A stretch of 64,000 nt of DNA from Streptococcus sp. LPB0220. Its GTDB lineage: Bacteria; Bacillota; Bacilli; Lactobacillales; Streptococcaceae. The stretch spans positions 1,968,001-2,032,000 of the forward strand of contig NZ_CP044230.1 in the NCBI RefSeq assembly GCF_008727815.1, read 5' to 3'. Each line of letters starts with the position of its first letter. Within the stretch, counting starts at the first letter, position 1. Under the pieces are notes generated by a model, which saw nothing but the letters and a program-made list of their open reading frames with translations, did no database searches and was not told the DNA's origin. The position numbers and the translations under genes were made by a program. This document shows, piece after piece, positions 381-26,968 of this stretch.

Positions 381-1322
381 TTAATTTAGTTCCGCACCAA
401 TATAGCGAAATTCTCCATCAGGCTGTGCTAAAAATTTCAAAACTTTAAAATCCCCATCAACCTCACAGAGTACTGTAGCCACTACACGTGTAGACTTAAA
501 TGTTTCCCCATTGGCAGTTAGTTTGCGCTCTGTCCCAATTTCGACGGTTTTTCGATGTTTTTTCAAAAACTCAGATAATCTTGTCCCACCTTGCCCTGTC
601 TGCTTGTTTCCTTTTTTCAGACTTCGAAATTCCTTTTCAGTCAAGGCGCGATTGCTCGAGGCATCATCGCTATCATCATCATCCTCTGGATTTTTATGCT
701 CATACAATTCATCTAATTCCGTCACGGACACACTTTTTAAATAATAATTGCCATCGACTTCGTCAAATCTCATTCTCAAATTCTGATGTTCAGTAGCCTT
801 TGAGTCATTCCAAGTAAACTCCATTGCATTCTTTTTATATTCAACACTGGATGCTAACCCATAGACTTCTACAATCTGATCTGCTGTCAAACCATAACCT
901 TCCCGATTGGTGTAACTCAACAAGCCAAGATCCTTGAAAGTCCATGTGAAAATGACCTTTTCTTTATCCGTTACAAAACCTGCTTTTGTTTCATTTGCTT
1001 CGGTCTTTGCACGTTCTAAACGTTTAAATCGTTGCGACTCCTTACTTGTTTGAGAGGATTGTCCCCAAATATATCCGCTCACACCACCGAAAAGCCCACC
1101 AATCACAAGCGCTAAAAGTGAAAATAGTACTAATTTTTTCCACTTGTGCTTTGGCTTAGTTGGATAGGACCACTGAGGCGGAAGCATTTGTGGATTTGTT
1201 TCTTCAAATGGATAAGCAGGGCCCTGCATTTGAACTCCTCTCACCTGTCCTTCTCCTTGTGGTGTCTCTTGCATCTGTGGCTCTTCCGGCACTGAAAAAG
1301 GCTGTTTATCTTCTGTAGTCAT
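381..1322 (-). CDS. membrane-anchored protein of unknown function (type A paralogue)
   Basis: 313 residues. I start it at ATG 1322 (MTTEDKQPFS) because AAAGGAGAGAGT precedes it and the paralogue at 4220 starts at the same place. The upstream open frame to 1502 only reads through a duplicated terminator/promoter block. Residues 1-60 are polar and rich in Pro, Gln and Glu; residues 62-86 form one membrane helix; the rest is predicted outside. Two similar half-domains follow, one with LTADQIVEVYGLAS and one with GQGGTRLSEFLKKH, separated by an acidic DDDDSDD linker. The two-repeat layout recalls small BLIP/SmpA-like folds, but this is only an impression. Function unknown. Confidence 0.75.
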   Translation of the reverse strand: MTTEDKQPFSVPEEPQMQETPQGEGQVRGVQMQGPAYPFEETNPQMLPPQWSYPTKPKHKWKKLVLFSLLALVIGGLFGGVSGYIWGQSSQTSKESQRFKRLERAKTEANETKAGFVTDKEKVIFTWTFKDLGLLSYTNREGYGLTADQIVEVYGLASSVEYKKNAMEFTWNDSKATEHQNLRMRFDEVDGNYYLKSVSVTELDELYEHKNPEDDDDSDDASSNRALTEKEFRSLKKGNKQTGQGGTRLSEFLKKHRKTVEIGTERKLTANGETFKSTRVVATVLCEVDGDFKVLKFLAQPDGEFRYIGAELN

Positions 1323-1500
1323 ACTCTCTCCTTTTGATTCTCTTTGTCTCATTTGATGATCACAGTGAGTGAAAATCATTTGATGAACAAAGTATAAAAA
1401 TGCTCCTTCTACTATATCATAAATCTCCTGATGGCGCCAATTCATCACTAAATGGGGAAATAGGCACAAAAAAACGACCTCTTGCGAGATCGTTTTATCC
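1323..1500 (-). repeat. duplicated terminator-promoter block, copy 1
   Basis: About 178 bp nearly identical to 4221-4400. It contains, in minus-strand order, a terminator hairpin (1468-1496), a possible -10 TATAGT, and two 11-bp repeats TCATTTGATGA (plus-strand reading) at 1349-1359 and 1376-1386, spaced 27 bp. The ribosome site of the next gene follows. The paired 11-mers are conserved in both copies and look like an operator, but no regulator is known to me. The block shows that the type A genes were duplicated with their control region. Confidence 0.75.
1468..1496 (-). terminator. Rho-independent terminator behind the 1574-2386 gene
   Basis: On the minus strand the sequence reads AACGATCTC-GCAA-GAGGTCGTT followed by a T run: a 9-bp stem with one wobble pair and a GCAA loop. 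It overlaps the stop codon (1495-1497) that the upstream gene would use if its frameshift were repaired. Confidence 0.8.
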
Positions 1501-1573
1501 AAATGCTGTTACATTCTCAAGTCGGTATTCCCCTTGCTGATTCTTTTTAAATGATAAGGTTATTTTTCTTTGA

Positions 1574-2386
1574 TCAGTTGTAAAGTATAGGATATATATA
1601 ACTATTTTCCCCTTCATACAGGTTGTTACTGTAACTGTTCTTAGGGATTCCAAACTGGCTTATAGCCTCCATTAACCCAATCCCTTCCTGACCACTTTTA
1701 GGCAAATAAGAACGATATTCTTCTAAAGTTTTATTCGCCTTGCCCGCTTGAGCTTTAGTAACTTCAAGATAGACACGCTCGACACGACTTTTTCCTTCAA
1801 ACTCATTAATAATAATTTTGAAAAAACCCTGTTGGTCAGAAAGCTTATAATAAAAGGTTACCCGTTCTTTCCCCGAGGAATCATAATCAAGTAAACCTGC
1901 AAACGCCTTTCCATATTTCTCAATTATTTCTGAAGGCGTTAGCGTTTGCTTCTTTGTAGCATCCATTAGCTCAAAGACTTCATCAACTGAAAAAACTCTT
2001 ACTTGAGACGGATCAACCCACTCAGAATTTTCTTTTTTCAATATCTGTCCAATTTTTTTATTCTCACTTTTGCTCGCTTGAATATTCGAGGAGCTGGTAG
2101 AAGATTTCTTTTTTTGATATCTTTCCGAAGATCTTATGATCTTATTTTCGGGTCTATGAACGACTGTTTTTTTATAATACCAGACTCCTATCAGAAAAAA
2201 TACGAATACAACGATCACTGACAAGAGTACTCGGATTATGTTACGTGAAATCCGAAATCCTATTTGTTTCTTTTGATCTTCAAAAATCGCCCCTTGAGGT
2301 CCTTCATCCGAAAATGCACTCGGAAAAGAGTACAGATTCCCATGATTCTTAGACCATTCACGTTGTACTTTTCTTCCTCTTGACAT
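1574..2386 (-). CDS. membrane-anchored protein of unknown function (type C), frameshifted near the C-terminus
   Basis: 270 residues from ATG 2386. A basic N-terminal tail is followed by a membrane helix at about residues 50-71 and an outside region with LTPSEIIEKYGKAF and a second half-domain (GQEGIGLMEAISQF), matching the neighbouring paralogues. The reading frame stops at 1574 right after an alternating TA run (about 1594-1602). If one TA unit is added, the frame continues for about 25 more codons through KITLSFKKNQQGEYRLENV to a stop at 1495-1497. That tail is homologous to the ends of the paralogues (YKLTFYKQENGDYCLA; LKFLAQPDGEFRYIG). The gene is therefore frameshifted at a slippage-prone tract, either decayed or phase-variable. 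Confidence 0.75.
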   Translation of the reverse strand: MSRGRKVQREWSKNHGNLYSFPSAFSDEGPQGAIFEDQKKQIGFRISRNIIRVLLSVIVVFVFFLIGVWYYKKTVVHRPENKIIRSSERYQKKKSSTSSSNIQASKSENKKIGQILKKENSEWVDPSQVRVFSVDEVFELMDATKKQTLTPSEIIEKYGKAFAGLLDYDSSGKERVTFYYKLSDQQGFFKIIINEFEGKSRVERVYLEVTKAQAGKANKTLEEYRSYLPKSGQEGIGLMEAISQFGIPKNSYSNNLYEGENSYIYPILYN

Positions 2387-2497
2387 GTCGTACTCCTTAA
2401 CTTTATTATCTTACCCTACTATAGCATTAAAAACTGTATCACAGTATATATATGTCTTCCCCATTCTAGTCACCAAGTATTTCATGAAATGAATGTT

Positions 2498-3298
2498 CTA
2501 TTTACTTTCCTCTTTTGTCGCCAAACAGTAATCTCCGTTTTCTTGTTTATAGAATGTTAGTTTATATATTTTTTTATATGATATTTTTTTAAATTCAATT
2601 ACCATTTTCGTTTTATTTTCATGAGTGATTTTATCTTGGTCTGCCGACATCATGATAGACCCTGAATGATTATTTTTAAGTACTTCTGAATATGAAACTC
2701 CACCTTTCCCGGTTTCTGGATTCCCTACTTTCAGACCGTTATATTTATCGGCAGGCATCTGATCTTTCTCTAAATCATTAGAATTTCTGTCATAATTAAT
2801 GCTTTTAAGGTAATACCTTCCCTCTGCTTTCTCAAAATAAGCAAATATCATCTCATTAGAACTATTCTCATTAACGTCAGATTTATCAAGGTTTTGCCAT
2901 ATTAACTCAATTTTATCATCATGAATTAATGCCTCTTGAGCTTTTCCATATTTCTCTAAGAAATCATCAATCATGACACCTTGTTTAGGGTTTTCTCGAC
3001 TCCCAAACTTCAATTCTAAAAGCTGGGATATGTTCCAAGAAAAAGCAGAATCTTTTGGAGCTATAATCTTTTTAGATTGATCACGTATGGAGCGACTATT
3101 TTTTGTACGTGTTTTTAGCACAGGATAGGCTTTTTTAGTAATCATATTAACACCTTTAGAATAACCGATAGCCAGCCCTATAATCATTCCTAGCAAAATG
3201 TACCCAATAGAAGAAGCAATCCAAAAATCTTTTCCAACTCTTCTAAGTTTATCATTCCACCAACTATTATTTGATTTCATAAGTCGATTTATTTTCAT
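2498..3298 (-). CDS. membrane-anchored protein of unknown function (type B paralogue)
   Basis: 266 residues. The start at 3298 follows a GGGAG ribosome site about 11 bases upstream. One membrane helix lies at residues 27-47, then GYSKGVN and TKKAYP as in the partial gene at the left edge. The outside region carries FLEKYGKAQ and GKGGVSYSEVLKNN, the two repeat motifs of this local family. It starts 16 bp after the type A' pseudogene, so the A-B pair here mirrors the A-B pair at 381-1322 / 1-362. No catalytic motif is visible; function is unknown. Confidence 0.75.
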   Translation of the reverse strand: MKINRLMKSNNSWWNDKLRRVGKDFWIASSIGYILLGMIIGLAIGYSKGVNMITKKAYPVLKTRTKNSRSIRDQSKKIIAPKDSAFSWNISQLLELKFGSRENPKQGVMIDDFLEKYGKAQEALIHDDKIELIWQNLDKSDVNENSSNEMIFAYFEKAEGRYYLKSINYDRNSNDLEKDQMPADKYNGLKVGNPETGKGGVSYSEVLKNNHSGSIMMSADQDKITHENKTKMVIEFKKISYKKIYKLTFYKQENGDYCLATKEESK

Positions 3299-3314
3299 TT
3301 TTCATTAATCTCCC

Positions 3315-4220
3315 TTAGAAGCGTTTCGATCCAATGTAAAGAAATTCTCCATCTGGCTGCGCCACAAATAGAAGTGTTTTATAATCACCATCTACTTGAT
3401 AGGTTACATTCGCAAGCACTCTATTAGATTTATATTCTTCTCCTTCACTTGTTATTTTTTTCTCGGTCTCTATTTCAACGGATGCCCGATGTTTTTTCAA
3501 GATTTCTGACAATGGAGTCCCGCCTTTTCCAGTGTTTTTATCTCCTTTCATCAGATTTTGATACTCTTCTGTCGTCAAACGAAATTCATATGCACTATCG
3601 TCACTATTTTCTTTTTGTTCTTTAGATATCTTTTGGGAAGATAAGCCATACAAGTCTCGAATGGATACACTCTTTAAATAATAGTTATTATTATATTTTT
3701 CAAATTCAAAACTTAAGTCTTGCTGGTTTGAACCGATCAAATTAGTCCAACTTAGACTTAATCCATCTTGATTATATCTAGCTTATGAAGCTAAACCATA
3801 ATTTTCTACAATCTGATCCGCTGTTAATCCAAGTTTAGATGAATTATTATAACTTAACAAACCTAAATCCTTAAGTGTCCATAAAAAGATGACGTCATTT
3901 TTTTTGGATACGAAACCAGTTTTTGTTTTTTTCGCCTCCTCTTTCACTCGAGTTAAGAGTTCGAAACGTTGGGATTCTTTGACTGTCTGAGCAGACTTCC
4001 CCCATGCATAACCAGCAATTTTACCAAATAATAAACTAATCACTCCGCATAACATGATGATTAAAGCCAACATTGATAATAAAATTATTTTTTTCCAATT
4101 ACGTTTGGATCGCATCTCAACAGTTGCCTCTAACTGATCTTTTTGAAGTTCATTGGGAAAAGATTCCTTTATTTGCTCCTCTTCCGGCACTGCAAAAGAC
4201 TGTTTATCTTCTCTTGTCAT
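3315..4220 (-). pseudogene. type A paralogue interrupted by an in-frame ochre codon
   Basis: The two open segments 3783-4220 (145 codons, MTREDKQSFA start) and 3315-3740 are in the same frame. They are separated only by TAA at 3783-3785 and a stretch that still reads as family sequence. Before the stop it reads IVENYGLAS; after it ARYNQDGLSLSWTN, matching YGLASSVEYKKNAMEFTWN of the intact paralogue at 381-1322. The rest (GKGGTPLSEILKKH, LLFVAQPDGEFLYIG) is well conserved, so the stop is probably recent, or a sequencing error. The N-terminal fragment keeps the single membrane helix. RBS and start match the 1322 gene. Confidence 0.85.
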
Positions 4221-6174: not shown

Positions 6175-6252
6175 AGAAAAGAGCACACAGTTCACTTCGC
6201 TTAGGGCTGCTGGATTCCTCCCCTGACCCGCTTCACGCAGAACTGTTGCTCC
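6175..6252 (-). ncRNA. ffs: signal recognition particle RNA (small bacterial type)
   Basis: The minus strand carries the diagnostic domain IV loops: GTCAGG on one arm and GGAATCCAGCAGCC on the other, as in 4.5S RNA. These are the Ffh-binding symmetric and asymmetric loops. The 5' GAGCAACAGTTC pairs with the 3' GAACTGTGTGCTC to close a rod of about 78 nt, followed by a short T stretch. The promoter is -35 TTGCAA, 16 bp, -10 TATAAT (6260-6265). It directs co-translational membrane targeting together with Ffh. Position right behind tadA matches Firmicutes, where scr follows tadA. Ends are placed by pairing and may be off by a few bases. Confidence 0.9.
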
Positions 6253-6298
6253 GATAGGTATTATATCATAATTTGTTCGATTTGCAAAGGTCCGGTTT

Positions 6299-6808
6299 TT
6301 ATTCTTGTGTTTCGGCCTTGGCTGCGAGTTTGGCTTGTTTTTTTCGTTCTCGACCTTGGCGGAAGAAGGTCTGCATGATGGCTGCACATTCTGCTTCCAA
6401 GATTCCTGTTTCTACTTCGACTCGGTGATTGAGGCGTTCATCTGCCAAAATGTCGTAGAGACTACCTGCTCCACCGAACTTCTGATTGGTCGCCCCGTAA
6501 ATCACCTGGGGAATCCGAGCTAGACCAATGGCACCACTACACATGACACAGGGCTCAATCGTGACAAAAAGCGTCGTATCCAGCAGGCGCCAGCTATTTT
6601 CACGCTGATTGGCCTCCTCGATCGCCATGATTTCCGCATGCATGACCGCCCGCTGCAGCTCCTCACGCGCATTATGTCCACGCCCGATAATCTGACCATC
6701 CTTGACCAAGACACAGCCAATCGGTATTTCATCATTGGCGAGGGCAATCTCCGCCTCCTTCAGGGCTTCCCTCATAAACATCGCTTTTTCCTCTATCGTG
6801 TAGTCCAT
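6299..6808 (-). CDS. tadA: tRNA-specific adenosine deaminase
   Basis: 169 residues. It deaminates A34 to inosine in tRNA-Arg(ACG), in the cytoplasm. The zinc/catalytic motifs are complete: HAEIMA (His ligand and general-acid Glu) at about residue 58, and PCVMCSGAI (two Cys ligands) at about residue 88. I start at ATG 6808 (MDYTIEEKAM) with AGGAAGAAGGAAGAG upstream. The earlier in-frame ATG at 6841 overlaps the likely -10 box TATAAT (6840-6845) and would leave no room for a leader. The basic, Lys-rich C-terminus (RERKKQAKLAAKAE) is common in streptococcal TadA. The SRP RNA follows. Confidence 0.95.
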   Translation of the reverse strand: MDYTIEEKAMFMREALKEAEIALANDEIPIGCVLVKDGQIIGRGHNAREELQRAVMHAEIMAIEEANQRENSWRLLDTTLFVTIEPCVMCSGAIGLARIPQVIYGATNQKFGGAGSLYDILADERLNHRVEVETGILEAECAAIMQTFFRQGRERKKQAKLAAKAETQE

Positions 6809-6867
6809 CTCTTCCTTCTTCCTTTTAGTTTCTTTGTTCATTATACCATAGGCAGCTTACGACTCAC

Positions 6868-6957
6868 AAAAAAAGCCGCCGATTGGGCGACTCTTATGGG
6901 AGATTATTATGAAAAAGTTTAGGAGGTTTAAACAAAGTTAGGAGGTCTTTGTTTATG
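6868..6957 (-). ncRNA. CiaR-dependent small RNA (csRNA)
   Basis: A minus-strand transcript of about 90 nt starting near 6957 after -10 TATACT (6963-6968) and ending in a terminator hairpin AGTCGCC-CAAT-GGCGGCT plus seven T (6868-6896). It shows the csRNA hallmark of several unpaired anti-Shine-Dalgarno stretches (ACCTCCTAAC, AACCTCCTAAAC, TAATCTCCC) next to a CAT that can pair with a start codon. That is why the plus strand shows false ribosome sites and tiny ORFs here. A stem (AAACAAAG / CTTTGTTT, about 6928-6954) folds the 5' part. The csRNA family (ccn genes) acts by pairing with translation starts; targets here are not known. Ends are estimates. Confidence 0.85.
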
Positions 6958-6962
6958 CTTCT

Positions 6963-6995
6963 AGTATAGCTGGCCTATCTTAAATAAAGCTTAAG
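6963..6995 (-). promoter_or_regulatory. CiaR-controlled promoter of the csRNA
   Basis: On the minus strand CTTAAG, five bases, TTTAAG (6979-6995) matches the CiaR direct repeat NTTAAG-N5-WTTAAG. It is followed by 10 bp and the -10 TATACT (6963-6968). This arrangement is typical of csRNA promoters activated by the CiaRH two-component system. Confidence 0.85.
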
Positions 6996-7110
6996 TTCTC
7001 TGAGTATTGATGATTTTGGAAATATCACCACTTAGAATCTCAAAAATATCTGACAAATTGCTGGCTTACTACTATCCGCTTTGTCGCAGAACCAACTATT
7101 GTGGCATCGC
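6996..7110 (-). other. spacer between the RiPP exporter and the csRNA
   Basis: No gene and no clear terminator. One minus-strand frame (stop at 6991-6993, open back to 7065) reads like protein sequence (LSDIFEILSGDISKI) but lacks a start and ribosome site, so at most a remnant. The csRNA terminator may also stop transcripts of the RiPP operon. Confidence 0.3.
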
Positions 7111-8697
7111 TCATCCTTTACGTAACTCAAGGATTTGGTCATAGCGCTCTTCTTCATCAATATGATGGGCTATTTCTAGTACCGTGATCGGCAAAGAAAA
7201 GATTAGGTCTCTAACCAGACGACTATTTTTTTCGTCCAAAGCTGATGTCACTTCGTCCGCTAATAAAATATCCTTCTCGCGTAAGAGAAAACGAGCCAAC
7301 TCTAATCTGACACGCTGACCTCCTGAAATGTTTTCACCATTATTATGAATTTCTACATTCAAAATATCCTGAAATTCATCTATTAAGCCAACTCGGTCCA
7401 ATACCTCCAATAATTCATGGTCCTGAAAAGGCTGACCAAAAGTTAGATTATAGCGGATAGTATCGTTAAACAGGAAGGGATGCTGGCTAATTAAACCGAT
7501 ATTCCCTTGGAAATGACTCGTTATTTGATTTCCATCATACTGAACGAAAATGTCACCCTCATCACATACTTCTTCTCCTAAAATCAAGCGAAAAAGAGTC
7601 GTCTTTCCAGACCCGCTCGGTCCTTTGATTAAGACCTTCTGACCTACTGAAATCGTCGCCGTCAAATCAGAAAAAAGCTGACGTTCAGCAAAACTTTTTG
7701 AAATATGATTTAAGCGCAACGATTCGAGATTTTCAACAAATTGATCCTTTGTCTCTTCGAAATCAGGTTCTTCCTCGATAATCTTAAACAGGCGGTTCGC
7801 AGTCGGCAAGGCACCTTGGAGATTGGCTGCACTGTACATCAGAGTTTGGATCGGTTCTACCAGCATCCCCGCAGCAACATACATAGAGATGAGGCTTGTA
7901 ATAGAAATAGAATTTCCCTGTAAACTCAAATAAAAGCCTAAAGCAAGAGGAACAACCTGACTAAAAAAGACCATAAATCCATTAAAGAAAAAAATAATAT
8001 TATGTGTGAAACAAAATCTTTGGATGGCTTTTTGATATTCTCCGTTTAAATCATTCACGCGCTCTTCATTCAGCCTCATGGCCTGATTAATCCGTAAGGT
8101 TTGGCTGCCTTGCATACTATCCGAGACAAACCCATGTAATTTCGTTCTAAGCTTGGACCAGCTGTCTCCCGAATCTTGTAAACGACGATTCATGATGAAC
8201 TGAGGAATAGGTCTCATAATCGTAAAAATGACAAAAATAAGTCCTAAGAGAAAATTTTGTGAAACAATATAAATGGCTGTAACAAGGGCGACAAATCCCC
8301 AACTCACCATAACATTTATATTTTCCAAATAATTATCGCCCACATATTCCATATCTTGAGTTAGCAGACTAACTTTTTCATCATTGGAAAATTTAGGATT
8401 CAATATGACTTTCTTAAATAAAAGGGCACGGACACTTTTGTTGATTTCTCTTCGGAATATATTGTGCGAATGGTTTGAAAACAGCATCAGACTATAAATA
8501 ACAAGATAGACAGACAAACCAAATAAAACAAAATTGAGAATTTTTCCATAAGAAAGGCCGTCTTGATCTAACTTCAAGGCCTTCGTTAAAATCAGAGGTT
8601 GCGCCAACACCAAACCACTATTCACAATACGCCCTAAAAAAATAGGAAAAAGATACTTCTTATCAATGTACTTATAAATATTTCTCATAATTATCAT
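7111..8697 (-). CDS. ABC exporter of the RiPP operon (fused membrane and ATPase domains)
   Basis: 528 residues: a six-helix type I exporter domain (about 15-300) joined to an ATPase domain (about 330-528). Walker A GPSGSGKTT (about 357), signature ISGGQRVRLELAR (about 455), Walker B ILLADEVTSALD (about 475) and the switch His (IAHHID) are all present, so it should be active. As a half-transporter it would dimerise. There is no N-terminal C39 peptidase, so leader removal, if any, needs another protease. It follows the precursor gene after a hairpin and probably exports the matured peptide or gives self-protection. The start is uncertain: ATG 8697 or 8688, both with weak ribosome sites. Confidence 0.85.
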   Translation of the reverse strand: MIIMRNIYKYIDKKYLFPIFLGRIVNSGLVLAQPLILTKALKLDQDGLSYGKILNFVLFGLSVYLVIYSLMLFSNHSHNIFRREINKSVRALLFKKVILNPKFSNDEKVSLLTQDMEYVGDNYLENINVMVSWGFVALVTAIYIVSQNFLLGLIFVIFTIMRPIPQFIMNRRLQDSGDSWSKLRTKLHGFVSDSMQGSQTLRINQAMRLNEERVNDLNGEYQKAIQRFCFTHNIIFFFNGFMVFFSQVVPLALGFYLSLQGNSISITSLISMYVAAGMLVEPIQTLMYSAANLQGALPTANRLFKIIEEEPDFEETKDQFVENLESLRLNHISKSFAERQLFSDLTATISVGQKVLIKGPSGSGKTTLFRLILGEEVCDEGDIFVQYDGNQITSHFQGNIGLISQHPFLFNDTIRYNLTFGQPFQDHELLEVLDRVGLIDEFQDILNVEIHNNGENISGGQRVRLELARFLLREKDILLADEVTSALDEKNSRLVRDLIFSLPITVLEIAHHIDEEERYDQILELRKG

Positions 8698-8704
8698 CCA
8701 TCAA

Positions 8705-8728
8705 AATAGAGGGCTAGCACAACCCTCT
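8705..8728 (-). terminator. hairpin between precursor peptide and exporter
   Basis: On the minus strand AGAGGG-TTGTGCTAG-CCCTCT is followed by ATTTT. The short U run suggests partial termination, which would make the precursor mRNA more abundant than the exporter mRNA, a common arrangement in peptide operons. The effect on expression is inferred. Confidence 0.55.
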
Positions 8729-8752
8729 TCTCTAATTTATTTAAAATCGTGA

Positions 8753-8836
8753 TTATTTACAATCACAATTATAGTTAAATACTCTAGGTTTAGCATTCAT
8801 TTTGTCATCGAATTTGTTATTCACTTTAACCTTCAT
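8753..8836 (-). CDS. candidate RiPP precursor peptide, 27 residues
   Basis: A small gene lying 13 bp after the radical SAM gene, with a strong ribosome site (GAAAGGAAG, six bases before ATG 8836). The product starts MKVKVNNKFDDK and ends FNYNCDCK before TAA at 8753-8755. The first part is polar and leader-like. The last seven residues hold both cysteines of the peptide. N21 and C24, and N23 and C26, form two interleaved Asn-x-x-Cys pairs. A streptococcal radical SAM peptide class with an NxxC motif, in which an Asn beta-carbon is joined to Cys sulphur, is known from the literature as I recall it. Membership here is inferred. The peptide is too short for default gene callers and easily missed. 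Confidence 0.85.
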   Translation of the reverse strand: MKVKVNNKFDDKMNAKPRVFNYNCDCK

Positions 8837-8849
8837 GATATCTTCCTTT

Positions 8850-10145
8850 CTAGTCCACATCTAAAATGTCATTATAAGATTTTGACAAAGCGAAAAGTGC
8901 TAAATTTTTACGAATTTTTTCCTTCACACTTTTACATAGATAGCGTGAATTTGTCTTCGTAATTCGCTTGGCCATCGGACAATAGCCAGATTTACAGATT
9001 AAAACAAATTGGCACTCTTTGCAACTTGCATCAAGCCGAATAACCCAATCATTCAGTTTACTGTAATTCACAAAGCCTTTATTAATGTTACCGAAAATAT
9101 TTTGAGGTTCATATAAAGCAACTGTACATGATTGAACAATTCCTCTTACATTAAACATAAAATGATTTTTTCGATTAGAATAGCAGGTATAATTATTATT
9201 CACTACAACTTCTGGGGAAGAGATATGATATCCTGAAGTTACAGCTAACTTAGATAATTCAAAACTTGCATCTTTATCCAGTAAAGTAACGCAGTAATTT
9301 ATATCTCTATCTCCTTTGCCCCAATTTCCAATAGTATGATAAGAAATCTTAAATCTGGAATCATCTTTGAAATAGATACCATCATGTGTTAAAAACTCTT
9401 TAACATTTTGATAGTTATCTTTACTTACATTAAAGCGAATCACACAAATAAAATCAAATTTACTTTCTTGCATTGCTTTCAAATTATCGAATATACGATT
9501 ATACGACAACCCACCGTTTTGCAATACTCTCTGATTATTATGACTTTCTTCATCTCCATCCAAAGTTATCTGGTAACTAGTCACTTTAAATTTTTCATTC
9601 AAATATCGAAACTTATTCTTAGTCAATAAATAACCATTCGTAGTGATTGCACTTTGATAATGAATCTGATATTTCTCACATAAATCTATAAAAACAGGAG
9701 ACAACCGCTTGATAGTTTTATATCCCAACAGTGGTTCTCCTCCAAACCAGCCTACTGACAAATACTTATACTTCCCGGACTGAAGTTTTTCTTTCAAAAA
9801 TTGGACAATGGCATCTTCTGTCTCTGTTGACATAGCAATATTTTCAAATTTTTCATAACAATACTTACACCGAAAATTACAATCTCCATGTGTCAAAATT
9901 GTTAGTTCCAATAATTCAGCATCTGTATCGCTTATTTTAGATAGATACTTTTCGACCTCATACTCACCCTCACTTAAATATTTATTTTTATCAAGATAAG
10001 CATGAAACTCTTTCCTAATCACATCATTGCTGTCGACTACTCTATTCAATTCATTCGTAAGAAAAAATGAATGATTGGTTTTAGTATTAAAATACAACGT
10101 ACCATCATCAGTACTATATTTTAATATATATCGTGACAAATTCAT
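8850..10145 (-). CDS. radical SAM/SPASM peptide maturase
   Basis: 431 residues. The N-terminal 80 residues resemble the precursor-binding region seen in other peptide maturases (RYILKYSTDDGTLYFNT). The radical SAM cluster motif is C89-NFR-C93-KY-C96, and GGEP at 135-138 fits SAM binding. The C-terminal SPASM part carries C321, C340, then C375-x2-C378-x5-C384-x3-C389 and C404, enough ligands for two auxiliary Fe-S clusters. Such enzymes install thioether or C-C crosslinks in short peptides, in the cytoplasm. The start is ATG 10145 behind AGAGGTGAT. It is first in an operon with the precursor and exporter. Confidence 0.93.
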   Translation of the reverse strand: MNLSRYILKYSTDDGTLYFNTKTNHSFFLTNELNRVVDSNDVIRKEFHAYLDKNKYLSEGEYEVEKYLSKISDTDAELLELTILTHGDCNFRCKYCYEKFENIAMSTETEDAIVQFLKEKLQSGKYKYLSVGWFGGEPLLGYKTIKRLSPVFIDLCEKYQIHYQSAITTNGYLLTKNKFRYLNEKFKVTSYQITLDGDEESHNNQRVLQNGGLSYNRIFDNLKAMQESKFDFICVIRFNVSKDNYQNVKEFLTHDGIYFKDDSRFKISYHTIGNWGKGDRDINYCVTLLDKDASFELSKLAVTSGYHISSPEVVVNNNYTCYSNRKNHFMFNVRGIVQSCTVALYEPQNIFGNINKGFVNYSKLNDWVIRLDASCKECQFVLICKSGYCPMAKRITKTNSRYLCKSVKEKIRKNLALFALSKSYNDILDVD

Positions 10146-10183
10146 ATTATCACCTCTTAATCTGTGTGACTTAACCTGCAGTA

Positions 10184-10212
10184 AGTGTACACCGATAGAA
10201 ATATTAAATCAA
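10184..10212 (-). promoter_or_regulatory. promoter of the RiPP operon
   Basis: Minus-strand -35 TTGATT (10207-10212), 17 bp, -10 TACACT (10184-10189), about 38 bp before the radical SAM start codon. I see no Rgg/SHP gene pair and no clear operator, unlike most known streptococcal radical SAM peptide clusters. Confidence 0.6.
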
Positions 10213-10263
10213 GCAATATTCAGCAGATTAGAAAAGTTCCAACTTTTAATATTTTGGAAAAGG

Positions 10264-10908
10264 TTATCCTATAAAAGCTGCAATTTCGCCAACTTCTTGA
10301 GCAATATAGGTGGCGCCGGCTTCTTCCAATTCTTCCCTGCTTCCAAAGCCATAAAGGACACCGATAGAATCAAGCTTTTGCGCTTGAGCGCCAAGCACAT
10401 CGTGCTCCCTGTCTCCAATCATGATGGTATGCGCCAAATCTGTAATCCCATTTTGCTCCAAGGCATACTGGATAACATCGCTTTTTTTACTACGTTTTCT
10501 ATCCATGGTCGCACCAGCGACAAAGTCAAAATAATCATACAAACCAAAGTGTTTGAGAATTTGAATGGAAAATTCTTCAGGCTTTGACGTAGCTACAATC
10601 AACTGTTTGCCAGCCTGCTTGAGAGAAGCCAGCAAGTCAGGAACGCCTAGATAGACCTCATTTTCATAAAGGCCTTTTTCGGAAAAATACTCATGATAGT
10701 AGTCAATGGCCTTTAAACATTCTTCCTTAGAAAATCCATAAAAGCGCTCAAAAGACTCCTGCAAGGGCGGACCGATGAAAACTCTCAATGCTTTCTTGTC
10801 TGGCACTTGAATCCCATATTTTCCTAAGGCATAGGCCACCGAGTTGGTAATCCCTAGTTCTGAATTGGTCAAGGTGCCGTCTAGGTCAAATAAAATCGTT
10901 TGATACAT
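10264..10908 (-). CDS. HAD-family hydrolase (phosphoglycolate phosphatase-like)
   Basis: 214 residues. Motif I is FDLDGTLTNSE (residues 7-17, nucleophile Asp and acid Asp), motif II VATSKP (about 104), motif III a Lys near 138, and motif IV IMIGDREHD (about 164). The alpha-helical cap after motif I makes it a subfamily I phosphatase acting on small phosphorylated metabolites. The substrate cannot be told from sequence; relatives are called Gph, PpaX or 5'-nucleotidase. It sits between the RiPP operon and a dispersed repeat that ends the purA transcript. Confidence 0.88.
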   Translation of the reverse strand: MYQTILFDLDGTLTNSELGITNSVAYALGKYGIQVPDKKALRVFIGPPLQESFERFYGFSKEECLKAIDYYHEYFSEKGLYENEVYLGVPDLLASLKQAGKQLIVATSKPEEFSIQILKHFGLYDYFDFVAGATMDRKRSKKSDVIQYALEQNGITDLAHTIMIGDREHDVLGAQAQKLDSIGVLYGFGSREELEEAGATYIAQEVGEIAAFIG

Positions 10909-10933
10909 TTTTTCCTCTTTCTGCTTTCAAAAA

Positions 10934-11107
10934 GAGGCTGGGACAAAAGTCCTAGCCTCTCAATTGTCTTTGGATTGTCGAGCAAGACGCAGTGGTTGAG
11001 TGGCTCTACTACGCTGATTTCATCAGCTTTTACAGCCCTACTCAACTGTGCGGAGGTGGGACGATGAAATCGAATTCTAACGAATGACCGATTTCTGTCC
11101 CACTCTC
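10934..11107. repeat. dispersed repeat family A, copy 1 (MITE-like)
   Basis: 174 bp, the inverted copy of 14584-14758. The ends are imperfect inverted repeats (GAGGCTGGGACAAAA and GAGAGTGGGACAGAAA). One end is itself a strong hairpin GAGGCTGGGAC-AAAA-GTCCTAGCCTC that serves as terminator for purA on the minus strand (T run 10931-10933 and beyond). Internal palindromes include GCTGATTTCATCAGC. No protein is encoded. Confidence 0.8.
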
Positions 11108-11121
11108 TTATCTTCATTTGC

Positions 11122-12535
<1,414 letters not shown>

Positions 12536-12733
12536 GATCCACTCGGCTATCGTTTATTTTTCTCCTTTCTTTTTAAACCAACTTCTCTATGAAACTCGTC
12601 TTTTACTTGGAAATTGCTTCTTTCTAGAAATAACGTTCGGAATTTTCTTTTCTTCTCGTCCTTCTTCTGAAACGACTGATTTTCGGAATTCTCCTTGTCC
12701 CCACTTTGCTTGATTTGTGCTAAAATAGTAGGT

Positions 12734-13606
12734 ATGGACAAAATTATTAAAACTATCTCAGAAAGTGGTGCTTTTCGTGCTTATGTACTAGACAGTACAG
12801 AAACTGTACGAACAGCCCAAGAAAAACATCATACACAAGCTAGCTCCACGGTCGCACTTGGCCGTACCCTCATTGCCAGCCAAATCTTGGCGGCAAACGA
12901 GAAAGGAGAAACTAAAATTACGGTCAAAGTCCTTGGGACTAGCTCACTCGGAGCTATCATCACCGTGGCAGATACCAAGGGAAATGTGAAAGGCTACGTG
13001 CAGAATCCTGGAGTGGATATCAAGAAAACCGCGACCGGTGAAGTTCTGGTCGGACCATTTGTCGGAAACGGAGAATTCTTGGTCATCACAGATTATGGTA
13101 CGGGAAATCCTTATAACTCCATGACCCCTCTTGTAACCGGTGAAATCGGAGAAGACCTGGCCTTTTATCTGACAGAAAGCCAACAAACACCATCTGCAGT
13201 TGGACTCAATGTTCTGTTGGATGACGAAGATAAGGTTAAAGTGGCGGGTGGCTTCTTGCTCCAGGTCTTGCCAAATGCCAAGGAAGAAGAAATCGCGCGC
13301 TTTGAAAAACGCATCCAAGAAATGCCTGCCATCTCCACACTTTTGGAATCTGAAGACCATATTGAAGCTCTTCTTGCCGCTATCTATGGGGATGAACCTT
13401 TCAAACGCCTCTCTGAAGAAGGACTTCGCTTCCAGTGCGACTGCAGCCGTGAGCGTTTCTTGAACGCTTTAGCAAGTCTGCCAGCTAGTGATCTAAAAGA
13501 GATGAAAGACGAAGATCACGGTGCAGAGATTACCTGCCAATTTTGCCAAACCCACTACCACTTTGACGAAAATGACTTGGAGGAACTCATTCGTGACAAA
13601 TCTTAA
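12734..13606 (+). CDS. hslO: Hsp33 redox-regulated chaperone
   Basis: 290 residues. A cytoplasmic holdase chaperone switched on by oxidation. The C-terminal redox zinc site is visible as CDC (about residue 236) and CQFC (about 268). The N-terminal domain has [10 protein letters not shown] and [10 protein letters not shown] start at ATG 12734 ([11 protein letters not shown]); the longer frame from 12695 reads through the promoter. The -10 TAAAAT lies only about 7 bp upstream, so the mRNA may be leaderless. The stop overlaps the dusB start, making a two-gene operon. Confidence 0.95.
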
Positions 13607-23257: not shown

Positions 23258-26200
23258 CTACTCTTTGCGACGAGCGAATTTGGCGCCTCCGCCCAAGAAT
23301 CCTAGACCAAGAAGACCTAACCAAGCAAACAATCCACTTTGTTTTGTACCGGTTTGAGGAAGTTTTCCTTCCGATTGTAGAGAAGGACTTTTAACCACTT
23401 CTTTTTCCGGATGGTCTGAAGTCGAAACAGAAACTGCTTCTGGGGTTTTCGGTTGCAAGAGAACAGGTCTTCCTTTTTCTTTTTTGTCTTCAGCTTGAGA
23501 AAGAGTCATAACTTCTGGTTGCACCTTACTTGGGGTGACAGGAGTGGTTGGAGTCGGCATATCAGCTATCAACGGACTTTTTTCCGCTTCCTTCGTTCCG
23601 ACTTCTGTGATCTGGTCCTGGGCCTCCACTTCGACAAAGGCATCGACTTCTGTCCGAATTTCTTTGCCTTCTTCTTGTCGAACCTCGATTAATTTCAAGC
23701 GGCGTCCGACCTTCCCTGCTTGAAGGATTCGGCTTTCTCCCTTGGCCAAGTCCTTGTTCTCACGCGTTTGACTCTCAAATGGAATCTCCTCTGCTTCGAT
23801 GAGAAGTTCTGGCTTTTCAAGAATCAAATCCCGAACACCTTCTTCTGGGCGTATCTGCGTCAGCGGTTCATAATTGCGAGCATCTTCTAAGATGGTTTCA
23901 AGGGCTTCGACTTGATTAGCTACAGCAACCAAATCTGGTCGCTCTTGATCCAGCAACTGAGTCAAGACCGTCAATTGTCCTTGAACCGTCGGTTTGAGGT
24001 CTGCTTTCAAGCGATCGAGAGAAGCAGCCTTGATCTTTTCTACTCCTTCTCTGATGATCTGTTGCAGCTCTTCTTGACTGAGCAACTGACTATCTTTCCC
24101 TGAGAGGACAAATCGGTCCACCTGGATGGCTCTGGATGACTGAGGGTCATTGAGGGCTGGATCCAGATGCAAGCGTAGCTGGTGGTAGCCTTTTGCTAGG
24201 CCTTGCAGATTGACCAAACTCTGGTCGAGCTTGCGTTGATCTCCGTAGCCACTGAAATAATGATCGCCGTCGATCTCATAATCATGGCCACGCCCTTCTT
24301 CGAAGGCCATTTCTTTCCCATCCAAAGTGACGCTGTAGAGACCATGACTTGGAACAACCACTCCTCGGACCTCCACGCCTGTGCCCTTAAAGGTAATGGT
24401 CACTTCAATGTGTTTCTTGCCTTCCTCATCGGACACTTGGTTAAAGCTGGACCAAGATTCTGTGCCATTTGAGAAGTCTTTGTTGTCTGTCTCATGATGC
24501 CAGCCTTGGTTATAGTGCAGTTTTGGATCTTGGTCATCCACTTCTTTGCGATTTTCTGGCAACTGGTCTTCATTCATCACTTGAACTGTCAGTTCTGGAA
24601 TAAAGCCGACCAAGCTTCCTTGATCCGGATGCAACAATTTGACCTTAAAGTCATAGACATCGGTCGCTTTTCCTGCAAAATCAAGGGTTGGAACTTGGAC
24701 TGTTTTTTCCGTCTCTCCATCTGCGAACTCAAGGGTGACGTTGGTATCTTTGTAGACCTTGCCATGAACCCCTGTTCCTGGTTCTGTGATCAATTTCAGA
24801 CTGGCACTTCCTTTAGAGCCACCTTTTCTCTTGACGACGACTTGCGCTGGGTCGCCTTTCTTAACAGCTAGGGTTGGCTGAGCAAATTCAAAGAGACCCT
24901 TTTCTTGGTTATTGAGAGCATAAATCCCTTCCGTTGCGATCGCATCTCCCTTGCTATTGACCAAGGTCAAGGTGTGAGATCCTGCTGTCAAATCCGGTGT
25001 TTCATAGACCTTTTGGCTACGTTTGCGGCTTGGGCTTTGGGTATTGATGGTCGCTAGCTTTTGGCCATCGACATAGACATCCATTTCCCCATGACCAGGG
25101 TCGACAGTTGCGATCACATAGGCCTTAGTGCCTTCAAACTGATAGGTCACCGAAGCTCCCTTTTCTTTGGTCCACATAGAGGTGCCTCGAACGCCTTCTC
25201 CCTCTTCATTCCATTGGCCATTGGCCCGCTCTGCTGTCCGGTCAGAATGATAAGTCAAACCAAGCGGATATCCATCGGTTTCTTCAATGCTAGCTGGCGT
25301 CTTATAGACAGAGACTCCGTTCAAGATTGGAGTAGCTTGGGCATCGGTGATGGACACCCGGATATAGCGACTATCAACTGGTTGCCCTTTGATCAATCGG
25401 CGGTATCCTACGGTTGAGCCAGCACCATATGGAACCCATTGGCCATTCACTGCCACATCAATGGTGAAGCCAGAAATCCGTTGGCCTTTCTCGATGGTTT
25501 CTTTAAGCTCTACCACATCAAAATGCTGTTCTTTTCCAAGATCGAGAACAAAAGAGCCGGTCTTGGCATCATCTGCAGGTGCCCAACTGGTCTTTTCATC
25601 ACCATCTGTCAAATGGCTGGCCTTGTAGAGCGGATTGCGTCGTGTCGAGTCAGCTTCTACCAAAGCTCCTGCCGCATAGTTCACACTGTAGAGTTGGTCC
25701 AAGGTCTGACGGAATTCTTTCAAACGGGCCACATCGGCATCCGCAAATTTTCCGTCTTGGTTGGGTGGAATATTGAGCAAGAGTGGAGTTCCACGGCCGA
25801 CCGATTTGAAGTAAATGTCCATCAATTCGCGCAAGGACTTAGGCTCTTGATTGTCATGGTAGAACCAGCCGGAGCGAATAGAGACATCGGCTTCTCCCAC
25901 TGAGTATTGCTTCCCTTCCGGATCCCCGTGATTGAGGTAGCTGTTGGATGGATTGTTGCGGATCTTATCTGGATTGACCTTTTGCCAAACCGGATCTCCG
26001 GCAATCCCCTTTTCATTTCCAATCCAACGAACATTGGTCGGCTCAGCTGAGAAGATAGCAATATCCCCTTGGGCCTTACGAATGGCTTCAAACCACTTGT
26101 CGAAAGTATAGGTGACCTTTTGAGCCCCATCGCCACGCGCTCCATCCATCCAGACTTCTACGAACTTGCCCTTGTTCCCATATTTTGGATCTTCAAGGAT

Positions 26201-26968
26201 TTCCTTAAGCTGGTTGAGATAGTATTCATTATATTGGTCCTCTGTATCCACATGGTAGAGCGGACTGTGAGCATCCCAAGGTGAGAGGTAGACCCCCATG
26301 TCCATGTCATACTTGCTGGCAGAAGCAGAAACCTCGGCTAGGACATCGCCTTTCCCATCCTTCCAACCGCTTTTAGCAATGGTATGGTCGGTATATTTGG
26401 AAGGGTACAAGAGGAAGCCATCGTGGTGCTTAACGACCATGATCGTCCGTTTAAAGCCAGCATCTTTCAGGGTTTTGATCCACTGATCGGTATCCAGATG
26501 CTCTGGATAGAAATAATAAGGATCTTCTTGCCCATCTCCCCACTCACGATCATAGTAAGTATTCATCCCAAAGTGGATGAAAGCTGCTAGCTCTTCGCGG
26601 TGGTATTGCATCTGAGCCTTGCTTGGAAGTGGTCCGTAATCCGCAATCTCAGTCTCCTCGTTTAGAGAAGTGGCTGGTTGGCTTGCTTCTGTCCCTTGAC
26701 TGACTGTGCGATTTTCTTTCTCACTAGTAGCTGCTGAGGGTTGTTCTGATGCTTCTTGGTGCTCGTTCACAGTTTTCTCCTCCTTTCCTTGATCTCCTGC
26801 ATTGCTTGTTTCAACCCGTTCTTCACGCGGTTCATTATTCTCAGCTTGTTCCTCTGCGTAACTGGTAGTAGTTCCTAAAAAACAAGTCGCTACGACTACC
26901 GAGCAGACACCTACTGAGAGTTTACGAATGCCAAATCGATTTCTCTGATCAACTAATCTTTTTCCCAT
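23258..26968 (-). CDS. LPXTG-anchored GH29 alpha-L-fucosidase
   Basis: 1236 residues. YSIRK-type signal (FGIRKLSVGVCSVV, cleavage after TSYAEE about 40) and a sortase signal LPQTG near 1202 followed by a membrane helix and RRKE. The catalytic GH29 domain spans about 110-440 with HFGMNTYYDREWG, KHHDGF and VWMDGARG (nucleophile Asp about 274). Next come an F5/8C-like sugar-binding domain (about 440-560), a region with a second binding or NPCBM-like module, a Calx-beta-like domain (about 690-800) and a G5 domain (about 1040-1130). It removes fucose from host glycans at the cell surface. It lies 104 bp behind the bgaA-like gene and may share its transcript. Confidence 0.92.
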   Translation of the reverse strand: MGKRLVDQRNRFGIRKLSVGVCSVVVATCFLGTTTSYAEEQAENNEPREERVETSNAGDQGKEEKTVNEHQEASEQPSAATSEKENRTVSQGTEASQPATSLNEETEIADYGPLPSKAQMQYHREELAAFIHFGMNTYYDREWGDGQEDPYYFYPEHLDTDQWIKTLKDAGFKRTIMVVKHHDGFLLYPSKYTDHTIAKSGWKDGKGDVLAEVSASASKYDMDMGVYLSPWDAHSPLYHVDTEDQYNEYYLNQLKEILEDPKYGNKGKFVEVWMDGARGDGAQKVTYTFDKWFEAIRKAQGDIAIFSAEPTNVRWIGNEKGIAGDPVWQKVNPDKIRNNPSNSYLNHGDPEGKQYSVGEADVSIRSGWFYHDNQEPKSLRELMDIYFKSVGRGTPLLLNIPPNQDGKFADADVARLKEFRQTLDQLYSVNYAAGALVEADSTRRNPLYKASHLTDGDEKTSWAPADDAKTGSFVLDLGKEQHFDVVELKETIEKGQRISGFTIDVAVNGQWVPYGAGSTVGYRRLIKGQPVDSRYIRVSITDAQATPILNGVSVYKTPASIEETDGYPLGLTYHSDRTAERANGQWNEEGEGVRGTSMWTKEKGASVTYQFEGTKAYVIATVDPGHGEMDVYVDGQKLATINTQSPSRKRSQKVYETPDLTAGSHTLTLVNSKGDAIATEGIYALNNQEKGLFEFAQPTLAVKKGDPAQVVVKRKGGSKGSASLKLITEPGTGVHGKVYKDTNVTLEFADGETEKTVQVPTLDFAGKATDVYDFKVKLLHPDQGSLVGFIPELTVQVMNEDQLPENRKEVDDQDPKLHYNQGWHHETDNKDFSNGTESWSSFNQVSDEEGKKHIEVTITFKGTGVEVRGVVVPSHGLYSVTLDGKEMAFEEGRGHDYEIDGDHYFSGYGDQRKLDQSLVNLQGLAKGYHQLRLHLDPALNDPQSSRAIQVDRFVLSGKDSQLLSQEELQQIIREGVEKIKAASLDRLKADLKPTVQGQLTVLTQLLDQERPDLVAVANQVEALETILEDARNYEPLTQIRPEEGVRDLILEKPELLIEAEEIPFESQTRENKDLAKGESRILQAGKVGRRLKLIEVRQEEGKEIRTEVDAFVEVEAQDQITEVGTKEAEKSPLIADMPTPTTPVTPSKVQPEVMTLSQAEDKKEKGRPVLLQPKTPEAVSVSTSDHPEKEVVKSPSLQSEGKLPQTGTKQSGLFAWLGLLGLGFLGGGAKFARRKE

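Follow-up and report, generated by a model that had tools for sequence, protein, structure and literature searches.

Peptides of the RaS-RiPP class, ribosomally synthesized and post-translationally modified peptides (RiPPs) with a radical S-adenosylmethionine (SAM) maturase, fall into 16 named subfamilies in PMC13361665. The streptococcal subfamilies are tied there to Rgg regulators, and in one of them, NxxC, the chemistry is described as a beta-thioether from Cys to Asn (PMC13361665, PMC8326336). Here we analyse a window of 64,000 nucleotides from Streptococcus sp. LPB0220 (assembly GCF_008727815.1, contig NZ_CP044230.1, positions 1,968,001 to 2,032,000), the whole stretch of DNA considered, which holds a compact operon for a maturase, a 27-residue precursor and an exporter; coordinates below count from its first letter. 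The 2.13-Mb chromosome is that of a Streptococcus whose nearest named loci are from S. parasanguinis, an early colonizing commensal of the oral biofilm (PMC6284299). The excerpts of PMC13361665 used here place NxxC, QMP and NEF in other species and list S. parasanguinis twice, under GGG and SSH, with no QMP or NxxC member, and the literature that we searched, partly in excerpt, yielded no description of this operon. Judged by its sequence, it is a RaS-RiPP operon of the NxxC/QMP group that differs from the described members in its overlapping Asn-Cys units, in having no detected Rgg and in its species.

The genes, their conservation and their pattern of loss are directly observed. From them we infer cross-links, activity and immunity, and consider it somewhat probable that the enzyme links Asn to Cys within the last seven residues of the peptide, yielding an antimicrobial that the exporter both secretes and protects against. 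On the best reading, many strains are immune non-producers of a costly peptide antimicrobial.

Operon architecture and the maturase

The core of the operon consists of the following features.

8850–10145, minus strand: radical SAM/SPASM maturase, 431 residues, with an N-terminal domain (about residues 1–76) resembling a RiPP recognition element (RRE)
8753–8836, minus strand: precursor peptide gene, 27 residues, C-terminal end FNYNCDCK; an open reading frame (ORF) conserved beside related maturases
8708–8728, minus strand: terminator-like hairpin in the gap between precursor and exporter, a proposed attenuator (conservation in related operons, RNA fold)
7111–8697, minus strand: ATP-binding cassette (ABC) exporter, 528 residues, with fused membrane and ATPase domains (PF00664, PF00005)

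The initial annotation had proposed a one-promoter RiPP operon of maturase, precursor and exporter, and comparative evidence supports the operon itself. Its coordinates, Cys spacing, 13-base gap and common strand all proved correct on re-reading: the precursor ATG lies at 8836, 13 bases past the maturase stop, preceded by the ribosome site AAAGGAAG, and 27 codons later the stop ends at 8753. The gene order also stood, but the hairpin that splits the peptide from the exporter had been overlooked, as had the partly characterised NxxC and QMP relatives and the absence of the maturase from many strains, and a single promoter could not be demonstrated, as promoter-like sites between 6800 and 10400 occur at chance number (15 versus 13.6 expected).

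The maturase matches PF04055, and the motif C89-x3-C93-x2-C96 and the seven further Cys noted initially (C321, C340, C375, C378, C384, C389 and C404) are conserved in an alignment of 62 rows, making ten invariant or nearly invariant Cys. Its best NCBIfam match is TIGR04463, at 135.9 bits against a cut-off of 525. The closest solved fold over the full length is that of the thioether-forming CteB, to which model residues 4–422 align; the anSME fold is also matched. Residues 7–76 are predicted to form a domain of three strands and three helices, in an order that we take to be that of an RRE, and by this predicted structure, rather than by a family model, the enzyme would carry an N-terminal RRE.

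In a maximum-likelihood tree of 31 maturases, the enzyme groups with those of loci G144b, G014, G196 and G036 (G numbers denote genomes, L numbers loci) and with the S. suis and S. acidominimus enzymes (90/93); the tree is drawn open, and this basal branch is weakly supported. The NxxC and NEF enzymes fall outside the group, six NxxC maturases forming a separate clade (100/100) without ours. Searches of phage and plasmid records returned 29 and 82 maturase matches, respectively, all below 60% identity, and among the eight matches listed for each none was from Streptococcus; a viral or plasmid origin was set aside and no mobile carrier was found.

Two relatives call for caution about intact genes: G196 (L133) has a full-length maturase without the nearly invariant SPASM Cys at our position 389, beside an intact precursor, and G014 (L124) has intact maturase and exporter ORFs with a frameshifted precursor. 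An intact ORF therefore does not mean a working enzyme.

Asn-Cys spacing in the precursor

We searched 284 genomes of the genus, our own included, and found the precursor in 17; a search of our own genome with the peptide gave no second copy. A small Cys-containing ORF lies directly 3′ of the maturase in streptococci with maturases at least about 50% identical to ours, and this recurrence makes the ORF more than a chance frame. The conservation check proposed in the initial annotation thus came out in its favour, ORFs with Asn-x(1–2)-Cys units being present beside orthologous maturases. In distant relatives (the S. orisratti CGG type, L016, L018 and Paenibacillus) the small ORF is upstream of the maturase, and in one, L036, none was seen beside it.

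The 16 precursors listed contain 31 Cys, of which 30 have an Asn at position −2 or −3, the exception being in the NEF precursor. None of 5,000 core shuffles matched these 30 Asn-paired Cys (shuffled mean 9.3), although the precursors are related rather than independent, three coming from our own lineage and several others being close. Where a precursor has two Cys, one Asn offset fits both: −2 in the S. suis and G144b/G196/G004/G280 types, and −3 in our own, G036, S. acidominimus and NxxC types. The G019 precursor has one Cys with Asn at both offsets. Our own carries two NxxC units that overlap (N21-C24 and N23-C26), an arrangement found among the 16 in our lineage alone. The S. orisratti precursor NxxcA (N20, C23), which adjoins a 52% identical maturase, also has two NxxC units in its core; N20 and C23 are reported to be linked, and a single bridge is named (PMC8326336).

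These regularities bear on the substrate. That the small ORF is no substrate, the maturase acting on a peptide encoded elsewhere, is highly improbable: a 27-residue ORF is by itself weak evidence, and the search of our own genome, made with this peptide alone, found a single copy, but the ORF is co-conserved with the Asn-Cys rule and NxxcA offers a precedent.

Repeated maturase loss at the home site

The position of the operon in the chromosome is framed by three features.

10264–10908: HAD phosphatase gene, flank of the operon
6299–6841: tadA, the other flank
6991–7056, minus strand: 3′ end of the upstream HAD gene, now displaced, at the right border of the inserted cassette (six empty sites compared)

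We defined the home site by a HAD gene at least 84% identical to ours, which gave 28 genomes and left 37 weaker HAD matches aside. The gene is followed by tadA on the same contig in all 28; 22 hold operon material, and six (G021, G022, G023, G024, G026 and G241) are empty, with 167–169 bases between the flank matches. Where the site is empty, HAD finishes with A-K-I-I-N-T-Q or a close variant; a similar end recurs behind our exporter, which places the insertion of the cassette at the 3′ end of HAD. The insertion supplied the HAD gene with a new end. The GC content is 0.31 in the maturase and 0.37 in the exporter, against 0.42 for the window.

Only four of the 22 operons are complete (our own, G146, G141 and G143). 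The other 18 lack an intact maturase through seven different deletions, shared by nine, two and three genomes or seen singly (G019, G147, G142 and G204); junctions were mapped in 11, and the remaining seven, of the nine-genome type, were assigned by the 92-residue end and the distance to the peptide gene. None of the seven deletions reaches the exporter start at 8697; the closest ends at 8705. With the observed lengths, the chance that all would spare this start is 0.036 under free placement and 0.00035 if HAD cannot be cut. The exporter is full length in 14 of the 18, and no complete maturase stands beside a broken exporter at the home site.

In 17 home-site genomes the HAD gene, maturase remains, precursor with hairpin, exporter and 3′ region are 98.7–100% identical to ours. 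In the same genomes purA is 91.7–99.9% identical (at least 98.9% in four of the 16 read) and pgi 77.7–96.4%. This points to a recent spread by recombination, which would have accompanied or preceded repeated maturase loss; 14 of the 17 have lost the maturase, through five of the seven deletions.

Truncated maturases also populate the public protein set. The 90% cluster of the intact maturase has 430 members, and a search with its first 92 residues returned 28 short proteins, of which we examined 26. The short forms have 259 members (the 92-residue deletion form), 54 (96 residues) and 27 (56 residues, apparently frameshifted), with further junctions beside these; in five proteins (P0134, P0137, P0145, P0148 and P0149) the maturase N terminus runs in frame into the peptide. 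Several singletons could reflect faulty assembly.

Exporters with and without a maturase

Both domains of the exporter lie above their Pfam cut-offs, bearing out the call of an intact gene; a peptidase domain was not found. Its best NCBIfam match, the streptosactin exporter GggC (NF050039), scores 186.1 bits against a cut-off of 750. An exporter search at E ≤ 1e-100 gave hits in 65 of the 284 genomes, from which we took 58 places with at least 52% identity, including our own; 26 places below 52% fall outside the count. The exporter is full length at all 15 loci with an intact maturase ORF, the G014 locus among them, and at 37 of the 43 without one. The broken exporters (0 of 15 versus 6 of 43; Fisher P = 0.32) are not significant alone, and the discordant counts (37 versus 0) are, with the limit that related genomes are not independent and that loci were found through the exporter. 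The home-site count (14 versus 0) is less biased, because both flanking genes were searched as well.

Orphan exporters occupy several unrelated sites. Ten exporters have no maturase or precursor found nearby, and their pairwise ratios of non-synonymous to synonymous change (dN/dS) are 0.03–0.20, with dS up to 0.66, which suggests that they are retained in their own right. Six orphans (L115, L117, L118, L129, L131 and L135) share a second site without a maturase; the gene upstream of the L115 exporter is presumably PepX.

Such orphans would be expected if the exporter were a general efflux pump of value in itself, beside which the RiPP genes decay neutrally. We regard this as distinctly unlikely, as an exporter of our type adjoins every one of the 21 full-length maturases with at least 50% identity, so that the pump belongs to the biosynthetic unit, and broken exporters are confined to maturase-less loci, at the non-significant level given above. 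The same orphans bear on another alternative, that the modified peptide serves for signalling or as a metal- or redox-binding factor, that the exporter serves only for secretion, and that maturase loss reflects a relaxed need in some niches. CDCK could, we presume, form a metal site. Away from the home site, some genomes (G004, G280, G076 and G191) still have a precursor but no intact maturase, and several RaS-RiPP families are reported without a known activity (PMC13361665). A pump that only secretes would nevertheless have no evident reason to be under purifying selection where precursor and maturase were not found, and we judge this explanation rather improbable, if less so than neutral decay beside an efflux pump.

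Expression signals and regulators

Two candidate elements lie 5′ of the maturase.

10184–10212, minus strand: likely promoter, TTGATT, 17-base spacer, TACACT (read by eye, sub-threshold)
10227–10247, minus strand: palindromic element AAAAGTTGGAACTTTTCTAAT, a possible operator (by eye)

Polymorphism in the locus is highest around the likely promoter (10212–10184). Within the home-site haplotype group there are 12 segregating sites in the 118 bases 5′ of the maturase, compared with 5 in 269 bases 3′ of the exporter and 23 in 3,528 coding bases (P = 0.0006 and 3e-10). Three of the 12 hit the two likely promoter boxes, and the altered −35 never occurs together with an altered −10 in one genome.

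Terminator-like sites in the region are near chance number (3 versus 2.0 expected), so the case for the hairpin rests on its fold (33 bases, −12.2 kcal/mol, z −3.5) together with its conservation in related operons; the latter was judged by eye, with our own stem shifted by one base in register in alignment A1. Four second-site orphan exporters (L115, L117, L121 and L129) lack the hairpin. Its stem is altered in three of the four complete operons (G146, G141 and G143), each time differently, and in none of the 13 maturase-less operons that retain it (Fisher P = 0.006); the predicted energy changes from −12.2 to −9.5, −9.2 and −5.6 kcal/mol. The stem of the window's own complete operon is unaltered. 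The promoter and hairpin changes may be a tuning of expression, with more read-through into the exporter in producers, as far as small and non-independent numbers allow.

The palindrome has a like element, by eye, upstream of the related G144b operon. A regulon was considered and set aside: our own genome holds a single exact copy, and matches with three mismatches occur at the control level.

Neither the window nor the 21 other home-site loci showed an Rgg in searches with both of our own Rgg proteins (E ≤ 1e-3), which a very divergent regulator could escape; the same holds for the G144b, G215b, G014, G196, G036 and G034 loci. The two Rgg genes of our own genome are both more than 300 kb from the operon, which therefore does not show the adjoining rgg of Rgg/SHP-linked RaS-RiPPs. 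Rgg-like genes do adjoin the S. suis, S. acidominimus, NxxC and NEF loci, with weaker matches at the S. ovuberis and S. orisratti CGG loci and at the orphan exporters L116, L145 (S. suis type) and L125. Because no adjacent Rgg was detected, a survey that takes Rgg as its starting point could overlook our branch.

Other features of the window

A csRNA1 (RF02379, a Cia-dependent small RNA family; 92.6 bits) lies directly 3′ of the exporter at 6869–6957 on the minus strand; it was the sole match in an Rfam scan of 6200–13000, in which the hairpin matched no known family. In another frame within the exporter gene, a 20-codon ATG ORF (8487–8549, minus strand) encodes a very hydrophobic product; it resembles a short hydrophobic peptide but may have arisen by chance. 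A row of similar predicted proteins, each with one hydrophobic stretch by eye, occupies 381–4220 (minus strand), one member apparently being split into two ORFs (3315–3740 and 3783–4220). A protein of 1,236 residues with an LPQTG end is encoded at 23258–26968 (minus strand); we take it to be a cell-wall protein with a fucosidase-like N-terminal part.

A proposed mechanism

In the mechanism that we propose, the RRE-like domain of the maturase, a predicted fold, would bind the leader of the peptide. The enzyme would then close a four-residue ring between Cys24 and Asn21 and perhaps a second, overlapping one between Cys26 and Asn23. Attack could be at the alpha or the beta carbon, the spacing being that of NxxC and the maturase grouping with QMP-type enzymes. 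The hairpin would keep the peptide mRNA above that of the exporter. The exporter would secrete the product, and, since no peptidase domain was found in it, another protease would cut the leader. The mature product would inhibit related streptococci, and the exporter would clear it from the cell or membrane; we propose the exporter as the immunity factor because the maturase is the part that is lost and the exporter the part that is mostly kept. Costly production could in turn explain the spread of maturase-less, exporter-keeping strains as immune non-producers.

Several points weigh against this proposal. Retention of the exporter is not absolute, because it is broken in four maturase-less home-site operons (G032, G234, G144 and G150); the deletion in each of these also occurs in genomes with a full-length exporter, so the exporter broke after the maturase was lost. 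Thirteen full-length exporters from the recent home-site group, compared with ours, show 0–2 synonymous and 1–3 non-synonymous changes, too few to show selection and by themselves no sign of constraint. The orphan exporters may serve general efflux, and repeated maturase loss fits any costly product, not an antimicrobial alone. A second ring is doubtful here, because NxxcA has two NxxC units and one reported bridge. The literature searched held no activity, mass or immunity data on this operon, and work on the related tryglysin looked for induced immunity without seeing it (PMC8092268). A more detailed account, namely an Rgg-free S. parasanguinis RaS-RiPP with interleaved rings and exporter-based immunity, in which commensals divide into producers and repeatedly emerging immune cheaters, the cheaters deleting the maturase and weakening the promoter but retaining the pump, and the producers weakening the hairpin so as to express more pump, is offered as tentative, and we doubt that it holds in every part.

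Comparison with known systems

The S. orisratti NxxC system (NxxcA/NxxcB) resembles ours in its 52% identical maturase, in a precursor directly 3′ followed by ABC exporters and in two NxxC units in the core. It differs in its separate maturase clade, adjoining Rgg, two exporter genes and non-overlapping units, so that our operon shares the core units of the subfamily and not its clade. The S. suis loci L006–L008, whose peptide ends in CQMP, have maturases 56.5–57.9% and exporters 56.9–58.1% identical to ours, with the same gene order, a similar hairpin (L168) and maturases in the same tree group. Unlike ours, they have Asn-Cys spacing of −2 rather than −3, a QMP ending and an adjoining Rgg; our core, FNYNCDCK with Asn at −3, lacks the subfamily feature. 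We read these loci, by motif and subfamily name, as the suisactin (QmpA/QmpB) type; suisactin reportedly has two 9-membered sactionine rings. Streptosactin, whose exporter GggC is the best family match of ours, far below the cut-off, has the core NASCGPSHSCGGGR (PMC12445099), which is unlike our own. For our operon, a new ring topology is predicted from a seven-residue core.

The several maturase losses beside a mostly kept exporter would make a natural experiment on exporter immunity and on RiPP cheaters in human commensals. The closest population-genetic parallel that we found is the blp locus of pneumococcus, where nearly 70% of strains are reported to have a disrupted blpA and to secrete no bacteriocin while immunity is kept (PMC4739721). 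Both systems would have many immune non-producers; in blp the strains lose the exporter and keep immunity proteins separate from it, whereas here it is the maturase that disappears, with the exporter mostly retained.

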